43,669 nt of DNA from a virus, in the IMG/VR virus record IMGVR_UViG_3300020810_000912, positions 1 to 43,669 of that record. One strand, given 5' to 3'. The position numbers and the translations under genes were made by a program. Below the pieces are notes generated by a model. It was not told the DNA's origin and searched no databases. It worked only from the letters and a program-made list of their open reading frames with translations. Positions within the stretch are counted from its first letter, which is position 1. Every line of letters begins with the position of its first letter. Shown here in pieces: positions 1 through 39,698 of this stretch.

Positions 1-154
1 CTTCTGCTACTTTATCCATGTACTCTTCAGCTTTTTTCTCAGCTTCTTTATTGTTACCATCTTTGGTATCAATATCTTCTACATGATTTACTTTCTTATG
101 TCTTACTTGACCTAAGCCTTCATTTACAAAATCTTTAAATGATTTTATTAACAT
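1..154 (-). CDS. Partial protein with capsid-targeting-like N-terminus
   Basis: The first 51 codons of a gene that runs off the left edge; the start ATG is at 154. Residues 4-13 read KSFKDFVNEG and align position by position with the capsid-targeting sequence of T4 internal protein I (KTYQEFIAEA), which gp21 cleaves after the Glu. The rest is highly charged (many K, E and D). A GAATATATAAA late-promoter-like motif lies 17 bases upstream. I infer a packaged internal head protein or a scaffold component; the function of the missing part cannot be seen. Confidence 0.6.
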   Translation of the reverse strand, partial: MLIKSFKDFVNEGLGQVRHKKVNHVEDIDTKDGNNKEAEKKAEEYMDKVAE

Positions 155-1602: not shown

Positions 1603-2235
1603 TTAGGCTTCAGAAAAAAGTTTCATCCCTTCGAGCTGTTTTTTAACTATTTTCCTTCCTCTAAATATGCGGTTCTTAACTGTTTGTAAATTTATTCCTT
1701 TTTCAGACTCTTTCATAATATCTAAGATATCCGAATATGATTTATGATTAAGGAACCTTTCTACCATGTATCTTTTATACATAGGAGGTAATGCATTTAT
1801 TGCTTCATGCGTTAGTCTAACCTGTTCATCTAATGTAGATTCTTCTTCTTCCCAGTCACTATCAGTCTTAGGTAAAAACCCATCGGTTGTGGTAAAAGAA
1901 TCATTCATAGGAGGTTCAACGCCAGCATCAGTAAATACATTCATACTTACTTTCTTGTTTCTAAATCTAATCCAACCTATACATTCATTATAAGCAATAC
2001 GATATGCCCATGTTGTAATTTGATAGTCTTCATTATACTGATCTATTTTTAGATAGACCGTTGTTAATGTCGTAGAAACAATGTCATCGGCAATAGTAGG
2101 ATCCTTTACAATATTATTAACATAAGACCAGAGCCCCGGGCGCATCTTATGATAAAGTTCATTGTAAGTTTTTTCAGATCTTGTCTTTTTAAATTCTAAT
2201 GCCAGTTCTTTGTAAGTCTTTTTAGTTTTTGTCAT
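1603..2235 (-). CDS. ECF-like RNA polymerase sigma factor
   Basis: A 210-residue sigma-70 family protein of the two-domain (ECF-like) type. Region 2 spans about residues 27-92: PTIADDIVSTTL matches the AEDLVQETF-type helix, and ITTWAYRIAYNECIGWIR matches the -10-binding helix. An acidic linker (about 102-140) leads to region 4 (about 143-200), with ALPPMYKRYMVERFL and the helix-turn-helix ending TVKNRIFRGRK. I chose the ATG at 2235, which overlaps the upstream gene by 14 bases; a longer reading would start at 2304 inside the phosphoesterase gene. It would redirect host RNA polymerase to phage promoters. T4 itself has no ECF factor, and a separate gp55-like protein is encoded at 42472-42840. 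Confidence 0.85.
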   Translation of the reverse strand: MTKTKKTYKELALEFKKTRSEKTYNELYHKMRPGLWSYVNNIVKDPTIADDIVSTTLTTVYLKIDQYNEDYQITTWAYRIAYNECIGWIRFRNKKVSMNVFTDAGVEPPMNDSFTTTDGFLPKTDSDWEEEESTLDEQVRLTHEAINALPPMYKRYMVERFLNHKSYSDILDIMKESEKGINLQTVKNRIFRGRKIVKKQLEGMKLFSEA

Positions 2236-2764
2236 TTGTAAAATCTTTAATCGTTGAATACTTAATAGGTGAATAATTCCAAAAATCCGTACATACATTA
2301 ACACGGTTCATTTTGGATAAATCTGTCTTATGAGAAAATACCGTATGACCATGAAAGTGGATTGTACCTGAATCTTTACCATTCCATACCTCTAACGGAT
2401 AGTGACAAATAACAGAATCGTATTGTGGAAATTCTGCGATTTGATCCTCTATAATATTTACATTGCTAAATTCATCGGCCACATCTAATAATGCCTGGTC
2501 AGTATTACCTCGTAAAAAGTAAATCTCGCCCTTTAGCTTTTTAAGGACCTGCCTTGCAGTTTGAGGATCCCATGCGAAATTACCTAGATGGAATACGATG
2601 TCAGTTTTCTTTACTACCTTATTCCAGTTTTTAATTAACTGGTTATTCATATCATCTATGTCTTTAAATGATATGCGATTTGCTATTTGCAAAATCTGTG
2701 GCCTACCGAACCATGTATCAGACGTTATGAAAAAGTCTGATGGAAATTCTGTTGTTTTGTGCAT
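2222..2764 (-). CDS. Calcineurin-like metallophosphoesterase, altered active site
   Basis: A 180-residue single-domain protein of the phage metallophosphoesterase type. The order of motifs is intact: SDTWFGR (15-21), HLGNFAW (59-65), RGNTD (85-89), CHYPLEVW (120-127) and HGH (138-140). Several metal ligands differ from the usual SDTHFGH, LGDF and GNHD: Trp18 replaces His, Asn62 replaces Asp, and Thr88 replaces His. The fold is clear but catalysis may be lost or changed. It is the first gene of the operon that continues into the sigma factor, and a Bacteroidetes-like box and an inverted repeat lie upstream. Confidence 0.85.
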   Translation of the reverse strand: MHKTTEFPSDFFITSDTWFGRPQILQIANRISFKDIDDMNNQLIKNWNKVVKKTDIVFHLGNFAWDPQTARQVLKKLKGEIYFLRGNTDQALLDVADEFSNVNIIEDQIAEFPQYDSVICHYPLEVWNGKDSGTIHFHGHTVFSHKTDLSKMNRVNVCTDFWNYSPIKYSTIKDFTNDKN

Positions 2765-2847: not shown

Positions 2848-3786
2848 CTATTTAATTGAAAATCTTTTGCCTCCGCCTTTCTTAAGAGTTTTTTCAACCA
2901 TAGTTTTTGCATATTCATCTAATTTAGTTAAACTATCTTTATCTAAAGGTTTACCGTAAAAATCCTCATAGATCTTTTTATAAGCCTCAACCGTAGAATC
3001 AAAAGGTACACCTGGTTGTGCATTTGATTCAATTACATAAACCTTACCATCTTTTGATTTCATCATATCAAAACACATATAGGGAAGGTCTTCATATATC
3101 TTACAAAACTTTTCCAAAACTTTTTTATAGTCTTTTGGAATGTCTTTTACATTTCTCTTAGCATATCCAAACTCCATTTCTTCTTTAGCGTCGCCCTTAC
3201 CACTTTTAGCCTTTTCATTAAGTGGTGTTCTTTCCATCCAAAAAATAGGTTCACCTTTAAAATTAATAAATCTATGCTCTTCGGCTTTATCAACATATTC
3301 AGAAAAAGTATCAAAAATCTTTTCATCTACATCTTCCATTAAATCCGGTTTATCAATAATCTGAATACCTATTCCGCTGTGTCCCTTAGAGGGTTTTGCA
3401 ATAATTGGGAAATTGAGTTTTTCTAATGCATCGTTTTTAGAATATACTGTCTTAGGAATGTTTTCGTCTTCTCCTACAAGTTTATGAAATTCTTCTTTAG
3501 ATCCAGATTTTGAAATATGTTTAGATTGATTATAAACATTTTCTTCTTTGATTCTCTTTTCCTTTAAAAGCTGATCTATGATAGAACTATGATAATTAAG
3601 AATAGGATAGTCAGGATTTATATCAATCTTATCGATGTTATTTTCAGTAACTTGAATGAAAAAGTTATCACCAGCAAATCCTTTATAAGACCACCATCTT
3701 TGACCGCTATCTCTACGAGTAGCAAGATAAACTTTCTTTAACGCAGAGTCATTAGAAAATTCTTCAAATAACTTTAGATATTTCAT
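2848..3786 (-). CDS. ATP-grasp family ligase with capsid-targeting-like N-terminus
   Basis: An ATP-grasp carboxylate-amine ligase. Numbering from an ATG at 3792 (314 residues), FPIIAKPSKGHSGIGIQ (128-144) carries the ATP-binding Lys133 and the glycine-rich loop. YMCFDMM (Asp242) and VYVIESNAQPG (Glu255, Asn257) supply the Mg-ATP ligands. I prefer the second ATG at 3786 (312 residues), because it leaves a leader after the promoter motif and begins MKYLKLFEEFSND, which resembles the T4 capsid-targeting peptide MKTYQEFIAEA. The substrate is unknown; RimK-like peptide or amino-acid ligation is possible. It sits directly downstream of the thymidylate-synthase-like gene. Confidence 0.8.
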   Translation of the reverse strand: MKYLKLFEEFSNDSALKKVYLATRRDSGQRWWSYKGFAGDNFFIQVTENNIDKIDINPDYPILNYHSSIIDQLLKEKRIKEENVYNQSKHISKSGSKEEFHKLVGEDENIPKTVYSKNDALEKLNFPIIAKPSKGHSGIGIQIIDKPDLMEDVDEKIFDTFSEYVDKAEEHRFINFKGEPIFWMERTPLNEKAKSGKGDAKEEMEFGYAKRNVKDIPKDYKKVLEKFCKIYEDLPYMCFDMMKSKDGKVYVIESNAQPGVPFDSTVEAYKKIYEDFYGKPLDKDSLTKLDEYAKTMVEKTLKKGGGKRFSIK

Positions 3787-3802
3787 GAACATTGGATATT
3801 TG

Positions 3803-3813
3803 TTTATATATCC
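3803..3813 (-). promoter_or_regulatory. Late-type promoter motif GGATATATAAA
   Basis: Minus-strand GGATATATAAA overlaps the stop codon of the thymidylate-synthase-like gene (TAA at 3806-3804) and precedes the ATP-grasp gene. It would separate late expression of the ligase from the earlier nucleotide genes. Confidence 0.5.
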
Positions 3814-4706
3814 AGGAAAATTGCATCACTTATCCATTGGTGTAAAAGATCATCTTTAGGGGTAGGAGTAAACTCACTTGTATTAATTACATCGTTACAT
3901 TGAATCATTTCATCTTCTATTTCTTTAATTCCTGATAATGCTTGGCCTTGTGGATCAATTAGGAATTCTCTCATTTCTGGAAATGATGTTGGATTAAATG
4001 ATTTCATTAACATTTCACTTACAAGATCAAAGTGCCTTTCATATAAATGAAGTGAATGGGCAATATGAGTATATGTACCTAACTCTAATTCAGGATAATA
4101 CTTTCTTAAATGTTCTAACATTTGCGTTTGGAGCAAACAGAAGAATGCTACATCAGTAGGAGTACCTAAGATAAGATCATTAGACCTCATATCAATAGTA
4201 AAGTTAAGTTTATTATCTCTTATTTGAAATATTCCATTAAGAGTACAAACAAAATCTTTATTACCATTCCATTGATGCGAAGGTTTATTAAAATGTAAAA
4301 TTGCCTGGCGACTATCTTTATCTTTAATAAGAGACTCTAATGCCCATTGATATTGATTATAGTAATGTTCATTACTTTCAGAAAAGATAAGATTACCATA
4401 AGCAGAGTTAACCGAGCCATCTTTGTTTGCTATTTGATTCCAAAACTTAGCATAAGGAGTAATAAAGTTAGCATCCTTGCGACCTGTAAAATACCAAACC
4501 AACTCAGCTGCAATATATTTAAATTGACTACTCCTACGGTCATTCTCGTATAGACAAAATGTAGGATCCTCGATAACCAATGCAGCATCGGTAACTTCAA
4601 AAATTTTCATACCTCTTGGTGATGAGGTATATTCTGGGTTATGAATAACACTATTTAATGCCAATTCATATGCCTCAGCAAACGTTTCACCTTTGTATAT
4701 TCTCAT
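3804..4706 (-). CDS. Thymidylate synthase/pyrimidine hydroxymethylase-like enzyme
   Basis: A 300-residue ThyA-superfamily enzyme. Visible landmarks are AAELVWYFTG (66-75), the nucleophile Cys154 in DFVCTLNGIFQ, RSND (174-177), LGTPTDVAFF (180-189) and AHSLHLYERH (216-225). The position equal to E. coli Asn177, which recognises the uracil ring, is Asp185. An Asp there is the hallmark of dCMP hydroxymethylase and of engineered synthases that prefer dCMP, so dUMP cannot be assumed as the substrate. The usual PPCH is VCT. It makes a pyrimidine 5-modified nucleotide (dTMP or a hydroxymethyl or methyl dCMP/dUMP) and sits next to two nucleotide kinases. The start overlaps the upstream small gene. 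Confidence 0.8.
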   Translation of the reverse strand: MRIYKGETFAEAYELALNSVIHNPEYTSSPRGMKIFEVTDAALVIEDPTFCLYENDRRSSQFKYIAAELVWYFTGRKDANFITPYAKFWNQIANKDGSVNSAYGNLIFSESNEHYYNQYQWALESLIKDKDSRQAILHFNKPSHQWNGNKDFVCTLNGIFQIRDNKLNFTIDMRSNDLILGTPTDVAFFCLLQTQMLEHLRKYYPELELGTYTHIAHSLHLYERHFDLVSEMLMKSFNPTSFPEMREFLIDPQGQALSGIKEIEDEMIQCNDVINTSEFTPTPKDDLLHQWISDAIFLDI

Positions 4707-34479: not shown

Positions 34480-34956
34480 TCTGCGTACATAGGTGAGGAA
34501 CTCCCTCTGTTCACCTTTTAGAAGAGATTTACAGTGTTTAGTAAATTTAATGGACGAATCTATTATCCTTTGATCAACCCTTTTATTCCGTGAGTTATGA
34601 GCCTCTGAGCATTTCTTACAAACAAAGTTTTCTACTTTCTTAGAATCCATTCTTGATTTAATATCAGCTTTACAGATTCCACAATTCCAATCTACTAAAT
34701 CGGAATCTTTTTCTAATTCTTTTATGCTAGTAAACGTTTCTCTAAAAGGATTCCAAAGAATGCGGTTAGGATTCTTTTCATGGTCATTCATATCCTCCAC
34801 TTTAAATATGATTTCATATACCTGTGGATCTGGTTCTAACCATTTCAGATAATCATTCTCTACCATGAATCGTTGCTTTGAAGGCGGCAGATTCTCCAAA
34901 AGAATACCATGCCGCCTTCTATACCATCCAAAGTTTATTTTACGAACTTTGTACAT
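34465..34956 (-). CDS. Zinc-ribbon hypothetical protein
   Basis: A 163-residue basic protein. Cys92-x-x-Cys95 (NCGICKADI) and Cys113-x-x-Cys116 (FVCKKCSEAH) form a zinc ribbon with a 17-residue loop. An N-terminal basic stretch (WYRRRHG) and a Lys/Arg-rich C-terminus suggest nucleic-acid binding. The stop codon overlaps the end of the plus-strand gene, and the start shares a base with the stop of the Lys/Pro-rich protein. No family recognised. Confidence 0.65.
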   Translation of the reverse strand: MYKVRKINFGWYRRRHGILLENLPPSKQRFMVENDYLKWLEPDPQVYEIIFKVEDMNDHEKNPNRILWNPFRETFTSIKELEKDSDLVDWNCGICKADIKSRMDSKKVENFVCKKCSEAHNSRNKRVDQRIIDSSIKFTKHCKSLLKGEQREFLTYVRRSSKG

Positions 34957-36074
34957 TAAGATTTATTTTCCATCAGTCTTCTGAACTTAGCAGAAACTGA
35001 TTCGTTTACATAAGATTCGTTACCGGCTTTCTTTTTCTTAGGTTTGCCTTCTTCCTCATCTTCTTTCTTTTTACCAGGAGGTGGGGGTGGAGGTGGAGGT
35101 GTTCCACCGGGTTTCTTTTTACCAGGAGTTGGGGGTGGAGGTGGAGGTGTTCCACCGGGTTTCTTTTTACCAGGGGTTGGGGGTGGAGGTGGAGGTGTTC
35201 CACCGGGTTTCTTTCCTCCTTCAGGTTGACCGTCACCGCCCTTTCCTTTTGCAGCTAATTCTTGTTTCCTTTGCATCAAGTCACCTATTGCCTTGGAGTC
35301 TTTTGTAGTATCCTTACCTTCAAGTTTATTTCTTTTCATCACTGCTTTGGCCCATGCGATTTGAAAATCAATTTTATCTTCTTCCTTCGCATTATCATTA
35401 CCGATTATAATATCCAATTCAGCCTTAGCTTGATCTACTTCTTTTTGAGCAGCATCTATTTTAGCCTGATCAACTTCTTCTTTACCACCTTTTTCTTTAC
35501 CACCGTCAGTAGTATTTACATTATCAAGGTTTTGATTATCTGTTCCTTCTGGTCCTTCTTTCTTATCATCAGCCTTTTCATAATCTTTAAGTTCTTGTTG
35601 ATCGGCAGCAACCTTTTGGTTAAGACCTTTAATCTTTAACTTAAGTGCCTTTGCTTCTTCACCATCAGCAGTCTTAAGTGCAGTTTCGGCAGCAGCCATT
35701 TTTGATTTATTCTTAGCAATAGAGGCAACTTTTTTAAGACCGGCCGTTGTGGCTAATTGATCCATTCTATCAGATATAGCAGAAGCCTGATCTTTTAATG
35801 CCTGATTCTTTTGAGCATTCGCAGCTTTAAGAACATCAGCTTTAGTTTTATCTACATTACCAGCAGCCTTTTTCTTTTCATAGTCAAGATTATTAATTGC
35901 AACCTGTACTAAAGCTTGTTGGTACTTCTTAGCATTATTTTTAATCTTGGTAAATTTAACAGGGCTACCTAACGCAGCTCCAATATTTTCGTTTAGTGTT
36001 TTATCCAAATCAGCCTCAAATGCTTTAGATGATTCGTTTAACATTTTGTATCCTTCAAAAGATAATAATTTCAT
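34956..36074 (-). CDS. Lys/Pro-rich candidate internal head protein
   Basis: A 372-residue, very Lys/Ala/Glu-rich protein. The N-terminus MKLLSFEGYKMLNES resembles a capsid-targeting sequence with a cleavage site LNE|S (12-15). Long coiled coils follow, then three copies of a GGTPPPPPP(T)PGKKKP-type unit (about residues 289-336), and a C-terminal YVNESVSAKFRRL with a second VNE|S site. It lies directly after the capsid gene and its terminator, with its own late motif. The basic, flexible chain would suit a DNA-condensing internal protein; a decoration protein or scaffold accessory is also possible. Confidence 0.6.
   Translation of the reverse strand: MKLLSFEGYKMLNESSKAFEADLDKTLNENIGAALGSPVKFTKIKNNAKKYQQALVQVAINNLDYEKKKAAGNVDKTKADVLKAANAQKNQALKDQASAISDRMDQLATTAGLKKVASIAKNKSKMAAAETALKTADGEEAKALKLKIKGLNQKVAADQQELKDYEKADDKKEGPEGTDNQNLDNVNTTDGGKEKGGKEEVDQAKIDAAQKEVDQAKAELDIIIGNDNAKEEDKIDFQIAWAKAVMKRNKLEGKDTTKDSKAIGDLMQRKQELAAKGKGGDGQPEGGKKPGGTPPPPPPTPGKKKPGGTPPPPPPTPGKKKPGGTPPPPPPPPGKKKEDEEEGKPKKKKAGNESYVNESVSAKFRRLMENKS
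35065..35208. repeat. Three 48-bp tandem repeats encoding poly-proline
   Basis: Three near-identical 48-bp units starting at 35065, 35113 and 35161, each coding 16 residues (GKKKPGGT plus a run of prolines). Copy number may vary between relatives. Confidence 0.9.
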
Positions 36075-36178: not shown

Positions 36179-37894
36179 TTAGATAAAGCTTACGCCATCG
36201 AATGTTTTGAATGCAACAGTGTAATACATTGTTTCTGGGTGGAATCCAGCATCTACTAAAGCGAAACGTGATTTAACCGCGATTTTAGGAGCCATAGTTC
36301 CTTCAGCGATTGTTTCAACAGATTCAGCCATTAAGTAAGGCATGAATACCAAACCTGGAGAGTTTCCGTCACCTTTACGTCCAACTGCAACTCTGTAGTC
36401 ATTCCAAGCCATGTTAGGATCAACATAAATAGTTACACCAGCAAGAGCACCAATTGGGAAAAGAGATCCACCTGCTTGGTTGATTGTGTTAGACAATGGG
36501 TAAGGAACGAATCCTGCGATATCCTGGAATGCAGTAGCAAGTTCACCAGAACATACTGCGAAAGTAGCAGGACCTCTACGACCTCTTGTTGCGATCAAGT
36601 TAGATGCAGCAAGAATCTTAGTGTACATTCTTCTTTGGATTGTACCTTGAGTTTCACCTCCACCAGTTACGTTGGTTACAGCAGAACCTGCACCTAAAGT
36701 AACATTAGCACCAGTGTTATCAAATCCTAAGTTGAATCCAGCAGCATTGGTAGTAGTTGTACCGTCACCGAAAGCAGCAGATAACAATAATCCTTCAACA
36801 GTGCTTACATTCTTAGAGTTAGTAGCACCGTTACGGAAGATACGATCCAAGATGTATTTGTTGATAGACTGAGTCAATTCGTTAACCAATACAGCTTCTA
36901 CTTGAGCAACTGCGTCGATTCCAAATTGCTTAAGGTCTTGAACTTGCTCACGAGTAACAGCAGCAGCAACTTGGAAAGTCTTAGCAGCAACTGACTTGTT
37001 AAATAAGCTCAATCCCATGATGTTATCAGGAGTAGCTTCACCTGCACCTCTTTCGTAAGGATTAACACCATCGATGTTAGTAAATGGAGCAGAAACGTTA
37101 TTTTTTTCAAAAGCGTTACCAGAGAATCCAGTAATGTGATCTTCTAAAGCTTTAACGTATTCAGCGTTTCCATCCCAAGTACCAGCAACAGTAGTAGTTG
37201 CAGCGTCAGAATAGAAAGCAACACCATTTGCTACAGCAGCATAAATTGGCTCGTATCCTTCTTCACCTTGACGGAAAGTAAGATCAGTAGCAGTGTTATT
37301 ACCTCTTACACGGAAGATTTGGTATCCGTCAATTCTAGATTTACCTACGTAAGTTAATTCGTAAGCAGCATTGTTGGTAGCAGTAGAAGCAGCGTAAACT
37401 ACTTGATCAACTGTCCAAGATGCACCAGTACCGACATCAGCCTTTACTTTGATTAATAAAGGAGCACTGTCAGTAGCGATTCCGCCAGCGTCAGTAACTC
37501 TACCTCCACCGTATACAAAGTCTAAGTAAGTAAGAACTCCCATAGGACCTTGCATTGGTACAACAGGTACTAAGTCTAAACCTACAGTCTGAGCAGCAAC
37601 TTGCATAGCAAGTGGCAACAAAGAAAATGGTCTATCACCTGAACCAGTAGTTTGTCCAGAGAATGCATCCATACTTCCAGGGTTTCCTGGTAAAGTAACA
37701 GCATTCATACCCTGAACATTCATGTTAGGATTTAAGTGTACAGTATTATATACACTTTCATTAAGGTTATGGTAGTGGCAGTACTTAGACATCCAAGATA
37801 ACTTAGACTTTTCAGTGATACCGGTAGCCTCCTCAATGATAGGGCCCCAAGTCTTTTGAACTTCGGCCTCGTTGATTAATTGATTTGCGTACAT
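36179..37894 (-). CDS. 23: Major capsid protein gp23
   Basis: A 571-residue capsid protein (T4 gp23: 521). MYANQLINEAEVQKTWGP is a typical gp23 start, and the N-terminal region up to about residue 47 looks like the delta peptide removed at maturation, with a likely cut at LNE|S (44-47). The body carries NPGSMDAFSGQTTGSGDRPF, NKSVAAKTFQVAAAVTREQV and QDIAGFVPYPL as in gp23-type HK97 folds. It is bounded by an A-rich leader with no Shine-Dalgarno and by a strong terminator, consistent with very high late expression. Confidence 0.94.
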   Translation of the reverse strand: MYANQLINEAEVQKTWGPIIEEATGITEKSKLSWMSKYCHYHNLNESVYNTVHLNPNMNVQGMNAVTLPGNPGSMDAFSGQTTGSGDRPFSLLPLAMQVAAQTVGLDLVPVVPMQGPMGVLTYLDFVYGGGRVTDAGGIATDSAPLLIKVKADVGTGASWTVDQVVYAASTATNNAAYELTYVGKSRIDGYQIFRVRGNNTATDLTFRQGEEGYEPIYAAVANGVAFYSDAATTTVAGTWDGNAEYVKALEDHITGFSGNAFEKNNVSAPFTNIDGVNPYERGAGEATPDNIMGLSLFNKSVAAKTFQVAAAVTREQVQDLKQFGIDAVAQVEAVLVNELTQSINKYILDRIFRNGATNSKNVSTVEGLLLSAAFGDGTTTTNAAGFNLGFDNTGANVTLGAGSAVTNVTGGGETQGTIQRRMYTKILAASNLIATRGRRGPATFAVCSGELATAFQDIAGFVPYPLSNTINQAGGSLFPIGALAGVTIYVDPNMAWNDYRVAVGRKGDGNSPGLVFMPYLMAESVETIAEGTMAPKIAVKSRFALVDAGFHPETMYYTVAFKTFDGVSFI

Positions 37895-37976: not shown

Positions 37977-39698
37977 TTATTTGCCTAGATTAAACTTAAC
38001 TTTACTGATAAGGTTAGCAGCAAAAGATTCATTTACCAAAGGTTCTGATTTCTTTGCAGCCTCAGCAGCAGTTTTACTTTCATTAATAGCTTCTGTTGAC
38101 ATTTGAGTATCTCTCATATCTCTTGTTGCCCAGAAATTATTAATTCCGTATTGGTTACCTAGTTGATGGAATTTAGATTCCGCAATGATCTGTGCCTGGC
38201 GAGCCTCAGAAAGGTTATCCCATTTTGCTCTGAACTTTTCAGGCATATCATCAATTATATTTAATTCTCTTCTCTTTTCAATAAAGGCAGATTCCCAAAC
38301 GTTTTCTGCTTGCACAGTAGACATAATTGGTTGAGCATTCATTGATTCAACAATCATTGCTTGTTTCTCAGCAGGAAGAGTATTGAATTGATTCTTTTTA
38401 GACTCTCCTAAGAAGTTCATAAAATGCATTTCAGAAACATTCTTAGTTTCAGCTTTAGCAATCAGTCTTTCCAATTTTTCTTCGATTGATTCTTTGTAGT
38501 CTTTTTCTTCTTCATAAGATTCACAGGCTCCTTCATGTACCTTTCCACATGATTCGCATACTGCATCCTTGCCTTCTTTAACATCGGCAGACTCATTAAG
38601 AGTTTCGCCTTCTACAGAATTTACATTTTCTGCAATGTATTCGGAATACTTGATACTCTTCTCTAATCCTTCACCGAGGTATTCAGAATAAGCAATATTT
38701 TGATCAACCTTTTCGGCTACATATTCAGAATATTCAATTCCTTTTTCAAGGTTTTCAGCTACATAGTTAGAATATTGAATTCCTTTATCAGCCATCTCCG
38801 CTACATGCTCGGCGTATTGAATACTTCCATCAAGTTCTTCAGCCAAGTAAGAAGCATAGTCCTTAATTGAATTTACATTTTCAGCGAGATAGTCAGAATA
38901 AGAAATGCTCTTATCTAGATTTTCAGATAAGTATTCAGCATAATCAGAAACCTGATTTACCTTTTCTGCAATATGCTCAGAATACTTAATAAGCTTTTCA
39001 ATCACCTCATCATTATTAGAGTTAGCAGATTCCTTAACGTTATTTAGAACTCCGGATACATATTCAGTATACTTTTGAAAATCTTCAACAGTTACAAAAT
39101 TGTTATTTTCCATTGTTAAATCTTTTTTATTATCTGTGTTGTTTTCAGTTTCTTCCATTTCATAGATTATTAAAGTACCATCATCTTCAAAACCAAAAGA
39201 TTCATTTACTCTTGATAACTCGGCATTCTCAAAGCCAGGATCTGCAACCAAGTCATAAGTAAAGAATTTTTTAATTTTAACCTTTCCATTTTCATCTACC
39301 GTACCGGCAGCTCTACTTGAAATATGTAAAGGGATACCATCCTTGATAAGAGCTTGTGCTTCTTTACCTTTAGATGTATTTAATAGTCTAATTTTTCCAA
39401 TAACTTGCTTTTTTGCTGGATCATAGTTTAATGATTCAACAACATGAGAAACATTAGCCAAACTAACATCAAAATCCTTAGGATGATCTAATTCACCTAA
39501 AAGCTTATTGGTTTTAACCTTTTCTTGTAATTCATTGATATGAGGCATTACTTCTTTTTCCTCATATATCCTGTTATTCTTGTTACGAACACCAAACTCG
39601 GTAAAGACACCTTCTAATACAACCGAACCGTCTTCGCCGGTAGTTATATCTAGGTTTGATTTAGCTCTTTCAAGAATCAATAATTTCTTTCCTGACAT
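37977..39698 (-). CDS. 21: Prohead protease gp21 fused to scaffold-like domain
   Basis: A 573-residue fusion. Residues 1-165 are the gp21-type serine protease: GVFTEFGVRNKNNRIY, LGELDHP with His72, and LHISSRAAG with Ser127 or Ser128, then FFTYDLVADPGFENAEL. After a likely self-cleavage site VNE|S (164-167), residues 196-573 are scaffold-like: nine perfect-length 14-residue repeats (239-364), a possible zinc knuckle (C381, C384, H388, C392), a helical region ending SEPLVNESFAANLISKVKF. T4 has separate 21 and 22. An internal ATG at 39113 could express the scaffold alone. Confidence 0.85.
   Translation of the reverse strand: MSGKKLLILERAKSNLDITTGEDGSVVLEGVFTEFGVRNKNNRIYEEKEVMPHINELQEKVKTNKLLGELDHPKDFDVSLANVSHVVESLNYDPAKKQVIGKIRLLNTSKGKEAQALIKDGIPLHISSRAAGTVDENGKVKIKKFFTYDLVADPGFENAELSRVNESFGFEDDGTLIIYEMEETENNTDNKKDLTMENNNFVTVEDFQKYTEYVSGVLNNVKESANSNNDEVIEKLIKYSEHIAEKVNQVSDYAEYLSENLDKSISYSDYLAENVNSIKDYASYLAEELDGSIQYAEHVAEMADKGIQYSNYVAENLEKGIEYSEYVAEKVDQNIAYSEYLGEGLEKSIKYSEYIAENVNSVEGETLNESADVKEGKDAVCESCGKVHEGACESYEEEKDYKESIEEKLERLIAKAETKNVSEMHFMNFLGESKKNQFNTLPAEKQAMIVESMNAQPIMSTVQAENVWESAFIEKRRELNIIDDMPEKFRAKWDNLSEARQAQIIAESKFHQLGNQYGINNFWATRDMRDTQMSTEAINESKTAAEAAKKSEPLVNESFAANLISKVKFNLGK
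38607..38984 (-). repeat. Nine 42-bp tandem repeats (14-residue units)
   Basis: Nine consecutive units of exactly 42 bp encode Y-(S/A)-x-(Y/H)-(L/I/V)-(A/S/G)-E-x-x-x-x-x-(I/V)-x, from YSEHIAEKVNQVSD to YSEYIAENVNSVEG. A related unit (YTEYVSGVLNNVKE) lies 29 residues earlier. The 14-residue period is two heptads. Confidence 0.92.

Follow-up and report, generated by a model that had tools for sequence, protein, structure and literature searches.

A phage ATP-grasp protein with a capsid-targeting-like N-terminus that may be packaged in the virion

A 43.7-kb virus record, analysed at its full length and called the window here, encodes an ATP-grasp amide-ligase-like protein of 312 residues (2848..3786, minus strand; complete ORF) which starts with a peptide resembling the capsid-targeting sequence (CTS) of phage T4. 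On balance we consider it probable that this protein is an amide ligase that is packaged in the head, co-injected and active at an early stage, with a host or a defence factor as its target. The parts of this reading differ in strength. Packaging in the head is very likely from the sequence, ejection into the host is likely by analogy, and an early anti-defence or hijacking function is slightly favoured. Packaging, as suggested by the original prediction, is strongly supported because the tag is conserved and also present on unrelated genes, because the T4 control retrieves ipII and ipIII, and because a late-type box and a cognate protease are found. That the protein is co-injected and then modifies a peptide or protein of the host is plausible, given the analogy with the T4 internal proteins (IPs) and the fact that some relatives have the gene in one operon with a tagged homologue of Acb1.

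The window carries T4-type head and replication genes and is probably a genome fragment. Since the nearest named major capsid proteins (MCPs) are those of the huge phage LR756500 (59% identity), the Prevotella Lak phages and the Tenacibaculum phages, the host of this uncultured T4-like phage is likely to belong to the Bacteroidota. The MCP of the T4 Gp23 family is encoded at 36179..37894 (minus; PF07068, E 6.3e-31). The gp21-type prohead protease and scaffold that accompany T4-type CTS-bearing head proteins are present as a fusion (Peptidase_S77; 37977..39698, minus; PF03420, E 1.5e-14), and homologues of this protease-scaffold occur in the relatives. A probable head core protein with the tag-like N-terminus MKLLSFEGYKMLNES adjoins the MCP (34956..36074, minus); it contains repeated proline-rich GGTPPPPPPTPGKKKP stretches and several LNE/VNE-S sites.

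From the ATG at 3786 the ATP-grasp protein begins MKYLKLFEEFSNDS, and an alternative ATG at 3792 adds MF only. In the close relatives L003 and L004 the position equivalent to 3792 holds no start codon, which identifies 3786 as the conserved start, as had been predicted. Thymidylate synthase (thyA; 3804..4706, minus; PHROG 160, E 1.5e-42) is encoded immediately upstream, and other nucleotide-metabolism genes are also neighbours. The late-type motif that had been noticed over the upstream stop codon is indeed there: a TATATAA late-promoter-like box at 3804..3810 (minus) overlaps the thyA TAA. Across the window the box stands in front of 13 genes in the sense orientation and of none in antisense. 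The genes behind it are mostly head and tail genes and include those for the portal, protease/scaffold, sheath, tube and core protein. An equivalent or similar box was found 5' of the ATP-grasp gene in most relatives. In this group of phages TATATAA probably serves as a late promoter, and the ATP-grasp gene would be transcribed late, together with the head and tail genes. When all genomes were taken together, a late-type box lay within 50 nt of 23 of the 70 tagged genes compared to 191 of 1150 others (Fisher p 0.0017); only these 23 have the box so close, though many tagged genes are arranged in tight clusters. Near the ATP-grasp gene, a sigma-factor-like protein is encoded at 1603-2241 (minus; PHROG 1740, E 1.2e-16), which could be a late sigma factor reading the TATATAA boxes.

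The enzyme part was examined for the hallmarks of amide-forming ATP-grasps, which are a linker Lys, a strand Lys, ExR, Asp, ExN and a GxG loop (PMC4431377). The window protein has all the features of this amide/peptide-ligase assemblage. The linker K97, K131, the ExR motif (E170, R172), D240 and the ExN motif (E253, N255) are invariant in 39 of 39 homologues, and the GxG loop (G138/G140; SGIGI) is invariant in the ATP-grasp homologues. An intact active site had been proposed with K133, D242, E255 and N257; the residues themselves were found, whereas this numbering counts from the ATG at 3792 and becomes K131, D240, E253 and N255 from 3786. The ligase is probably active, as judged from the sequence, because all hallmarks of amide ligases are present and invariant throughout the homologues.

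An AlphaFold2 (AF2) model of the protein, for which the alignment comprised the window sequence and homologues from the collected loci, had a mean pLDDT of 87 and a pTM of 0.86. The comparison with RimK and peptide ligases that had been suggested as a check returned ArgX, LysX and RimK as the best folds (Z 17-18), followed by glutathione synthetase, PsnB, D-Ala ligase (Ddl, about 14) and others (Z 14-15). No curated ATP-grasp family was matched above its own cut-off; the RimK family alpha-L-glutamate ligase TIGR00768 reached 19.2 against a cut-off of 143.4 bits and the D-alanine--D-alanine ligase TIGR01205 reached 23.2 against 245.65 bits. The modelled resemblance to RimK would be one of fold only, with the same catalytic residues, and the window protein further differs from RimK in carrying the tag. 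Sub-threshold R2K_3 matches occurred in 18 of the 39 homologues. The R2K-clade ATP-grasps of jumbo phages are likewise phage enzymes predicted to modify host proteins (PMC7824862, PMC4431377), but their clade is defined by having lost both the linker Lys and the ssxGbGl loop and by a second Lys/Arg in the loop (PMC4431377). Membership of this clade was rejected, as the window protein retains the K97 linker Lys and the SGIGI loop. Among bacterial genome contigs only four weak partial matches were obtained (26-34% over 71-124 residues), and the two of these that were inspected, L182 and L184, were of no help as a guide to the substrate.

Inside the host, the ligase would use host ATP to couple an amino acid or a peptide to a carboxylate of a host target. 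The most likely purpose would be to blunt a defence that acts early, or to redirect the host. An injected ligase might instead make a small molecule, such as a dipeptide, a modified amino acid or a peptidoglycan-like product. D-Ala-D-Ala ligase profiles are indeed among the best sub-threshold matches, but the fold ranking favours the protein- or carrier-directed ArgX, LysX and RimK over Ddl, with the caveat that a common fold does not settle the substrate. We regard such a small-molecule product as unlikely, and modification of a host peptide or protein is the reading followed here.

The first 13 residues, MKYLKLFEEFSND (3748..3786, minus), scored 30.8 bits with the tag matrix described below. 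Relatives were collected first as 40 viral contigs and then as 80 loci by profile, giving 80+ viral relatives. Their ATP-grasp proteins start with MKxIKLFEQF[IL][AN]E[KAS] and variants, and the homologue in LR756500, with 33% identity, begins MKFIKPYEEFKIND. Homologues without the peptide would have spoken against packaging; the tag is kept in every ATP-grasp homologue examined. It is also kept where a domain of 90 residues (KPKGAPEWHDSDAPDAEGRFKDLS) is inserted between tag and enzyme, as in L105-L109, L113, L114, L120, L124 and L013. Since the same domain stands alone behind the tag in G004 and G006, a shuffling of cargo domains behind the tag is suggested. The inserted domain is also listed for L014-L015 (range L013-L015). 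In the predicted structure, tag residues 1-12 have a pLDDT under 50 and are detached, and the structural matches start near residue 17, which fits a detachable tail.

Only N-terminal sequences of the ATP-grasp family were used to train the scoring matrix, and gene starts were scanned with a threshold of at least 10 bits in the window and five relatives. In this set (window, G001, G004, G005, G006 and G012) the tag was found at the start of 41 of 920 genes, six of which are the ATP-grasp gene itself, and at 2 of 5257 internal start-like codons. In the relative G019 (236 kb) it was on 28 of 324 genes and none of 1586 internal starts. In the 462-kb huge phage LR756500, whose own ATP-grasp homologue was excluded from the training, it was on 21 of 687 genes and none of 2169 internal starts. 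These scan counts are partly dependent, several of the genomes being closely related, and the gene calls are mechanical. T4, which was not in the training, gave ipIII and ipII as the top two of 273 genes, followed by gp61.1 and one likely false match. Taken together, the counts in these three scans and the T4 control ruled out a chance resemblance to the T4 peptide, so that the likeness noticed originally goes beyond chance. For comparison, the cultured Tenacibaculum phages PTm1 and pT24 had none of 318 and one of 303 genes tagged. The MCP, sheath and portal were not among the matches in the window and its five relatives.

The window contains a second tagged ORF, MLIKSFKDFVNEGLG, which runs off its end (1..154, minus; 12.7 bits) and has a TATATAA box upstream; its homologue in G012 (62428-62715) begins MPIKSFKDFVSEGL. 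A short N-terminal CTS-matching peptide is common to other cargo, most of which is of no known family. The 28 tagged genes of G019 (L197-L208) lie in clusters at about 24-47, 122-123, 147-151 and 205-206 kb, and most belong to no known family. Several of the 21 in LR756500 (L242-L265) have leucine-rich-repeat-like text behind the tag.

The T4 capsid-targeting sequence was experimentally proven in ipII and ipIII (Mullaney and Black 1996, as cited in PMC9958956, PMC3012670 and PMC12373910), the two proteins with the conserved T4 CTS (PMC9958956), and T4-type proteases cut after Glu (PMC5694885). At the cut position (P1) the 70 tagged genes have Glu in 60 cases and Asp in 2. The window protein and L003/L004 (SND-S) have Asp, and most homologues have Glu. 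That the cleavage residue is Asp rather than Glu had been seen correctly, and the Glu before the protease cut is missing in the window protein. Position 11 of its tag is Ser and not Ile/Leu. Because of these two residues the tag may escape removal in the window phage.

By the proposed mechanism, the 13 residues would serve as the capsid-targeting signal through which the protein is docked into the scaffold core of the prohead. The ATP-grasp protein would then be enclosed in the head, probably alongside other proteins with the same tag. In most relatives the gp21-type protease would cut after the Glu of the tag, and with the Asp of the window protein the tag may remain. The folded ATP-grasp domain would finally be ejected with the DNA.

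A hint to the function came from the neighbouring genes. G016 and G019 (as well as G017 and G018, which are nearly identical to G019) have an operon of three genes that are all tagged: the ATP-grasp gene comes first, an ORF second and an Acb1 homologue third. The Acb1-like proteins, MKRIKLFEEFLNEK in G019 (204974-205516, minus; L207:4974-5516) and MKKIKLFEEFMNEA in G016 (near 3858-4139; L239), match PF23474 above its cut-off and have both HxT motifs. They are predicted to be virion-packaged anti-CBASS enzymes. In most relatives searched Acb1 was not found, and the idea that every relative has a partner of the Acb1 or Tpt1/ART-like kind was rejected, with Acb1 present in some only. An ART-like guess for G005 104466-104864 was below the cut-off and had too few relatives for modelling. 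An anti-defence role of the ATP-grasp protein would follow from the association with Acb1 only. As a whole, the tagged set looks like an injected kit for counter-defence and take-over, by analogy with T4.

The tag and protease evidence would apply equally if the protein, packaged via its tag, did its work within the head during assembly or were a passive internal protein, for instance by modifying head or core proteins or by helping to condense DNA, and were no effector in the new cell. The tag-like core protein at 34956-36074, beside the MCP, points in the same direction; its G012 homologue has the tag MRKVKSYDEFVNEN with 20.8 bits. However, the catalytic site, invariant in 39 of 39 homologues, suggests enzymatic work, little ATP would be expected inside a packed head, and the operon includes a tagged Acb1 homologue, whose known activity makes sense in the host cell only. 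A role confined to the head is thus rather improbable. Still less probable is an unpackaged late metabolic enzyme whose N-terminus has another meaning, such as a late-gene leader or a membrane or assembly contact: the position beside thyA and nucleotide-metabolism genes and the altered cleavage residue are in its favour, but the tag is limited to a subset of genes that does not include the MCP, sheath and portal, and the ATP-grasp matrix retrieves T4 ipII and ipIII blind.

The scaffold region of the window (38628..38984, minus) has nine YxxYVAE-type (YxxY[VIL]AE) repeats of about 14 residues with the core pattern of the tag, and a 42-nt tandem repeat at 38680-38806. Each of six scaffolds has the pattern [FY]xx[FY][LIVM]xE 6-8 times, compared to 42 occurrences in the remaining 221,339 residues; the likeness of tag and scaffold lies in this looser pattern only. 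The strict tag matrix gave no score on the scaffold repeats, and a matrix made from the repeats was weakly enriched at N-termini. In LR756500, which has tagged genes, degenerate copies of the repeat can be made out by eye; PTm1, which has no tags, has a scaffold with a different repeat, and T4 gp22 has no copy of the pattern. The tag may dock in the manner of an additional scaffold repeat, with which it would have the protease site in common; this mimicry is put forward as a hypothesis, since the stricter matrices failed to join tag and repeats. How capsid-targeting sequences work was called 'mysterious' in a recent review of the T4 head (PMC9958956), and scaffold repeats with the tag core offer a testable idea. 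A more far-reaching proposal, which we make tentatively, is a modular injected arsenal of about 10-28 tagged proteins, in which the tag copies the core of the 14-residue scaffold repeat and the packaged ligase, within minutes after infection, attaches amino acids or a peptide to an immediate host defence, e.g. to a component of CBASS or restriction, and so disables it.

Among the closest known systems are the T4 internal proteins, which enter the host by injection and act as inhibitors of restriction enzymes (PMC12373910, PMC9391042). Ip1-3 have only the leader in common and differ in the GmrSD enzyme that they block (PMC12373910). With IPII and IPIII the tagged proteins share a short N-terminal [FY]xx[FY][LIV]xE peptide on otherwise unrelated proteins and a gp21-type protease. 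The differences are that the window cargo is an ATP-grasp ligase with Asp at P1, that a genome has up to 28 tagged genes compared to IPI-III and a few others in T4, and that the tag consensus is extended by three residues on its N-terminal side. Injection and the countering of host defence are established for the T4 proteins, whereas the system described here is known from sequence alone. The ATP-grasp protein may work like a T4 internal protein, but it was not filed as a proven member because the P1 Glu is absent in the window and its presence in the virion is predicted. T4 Acb1 is an anti-CBASS nuclease whose gene adjoins ipI (PMC9117128). Its homologue lies two genes downstream of the ATP-grasp gene in two lineages and bears the capsid tag, in contrast to T4 Acb1 (57B), which was not among the T4 tag matches. 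P1 DarB and the head propeptides of SPN3US and phiKZ are further cases in which a signal at the N-terminus directs ejected proteins to the head, but the P1 Dar proteins have no common consensus and the SPN3US propeptides are mostly >100 residues long (PMC9024508, PMC5694885). Our literature search found no tagged ATP-grasp protein, and to this extent the proposal of a new kind of phage effector fits; tagged, injected counter-defence proteins as such are known from the T4 IPs. If the reading is true, an amide ligase and an Acb1 carried in the virion would act ahead of any phage gene expression, and a 13-residue tag would reveal, from the genome text, the set of proteins that uncultured large phages bring into their hosts.

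Two further tagged genes were noted in the scans. In G001, an ATP-dependent DNA ligase (174421-175713; L075:14421-15713) has a tag-like N-terminus of 14.3 bits and is possibly packaged. In T4, gene 61.1 (NC_000866 18966-19130), annotated as hypothetical, starts with MKTFKEFIKED and scores like ipII and ipIII, which makes gp61.1 a candidate for a further packaged T4 protein.
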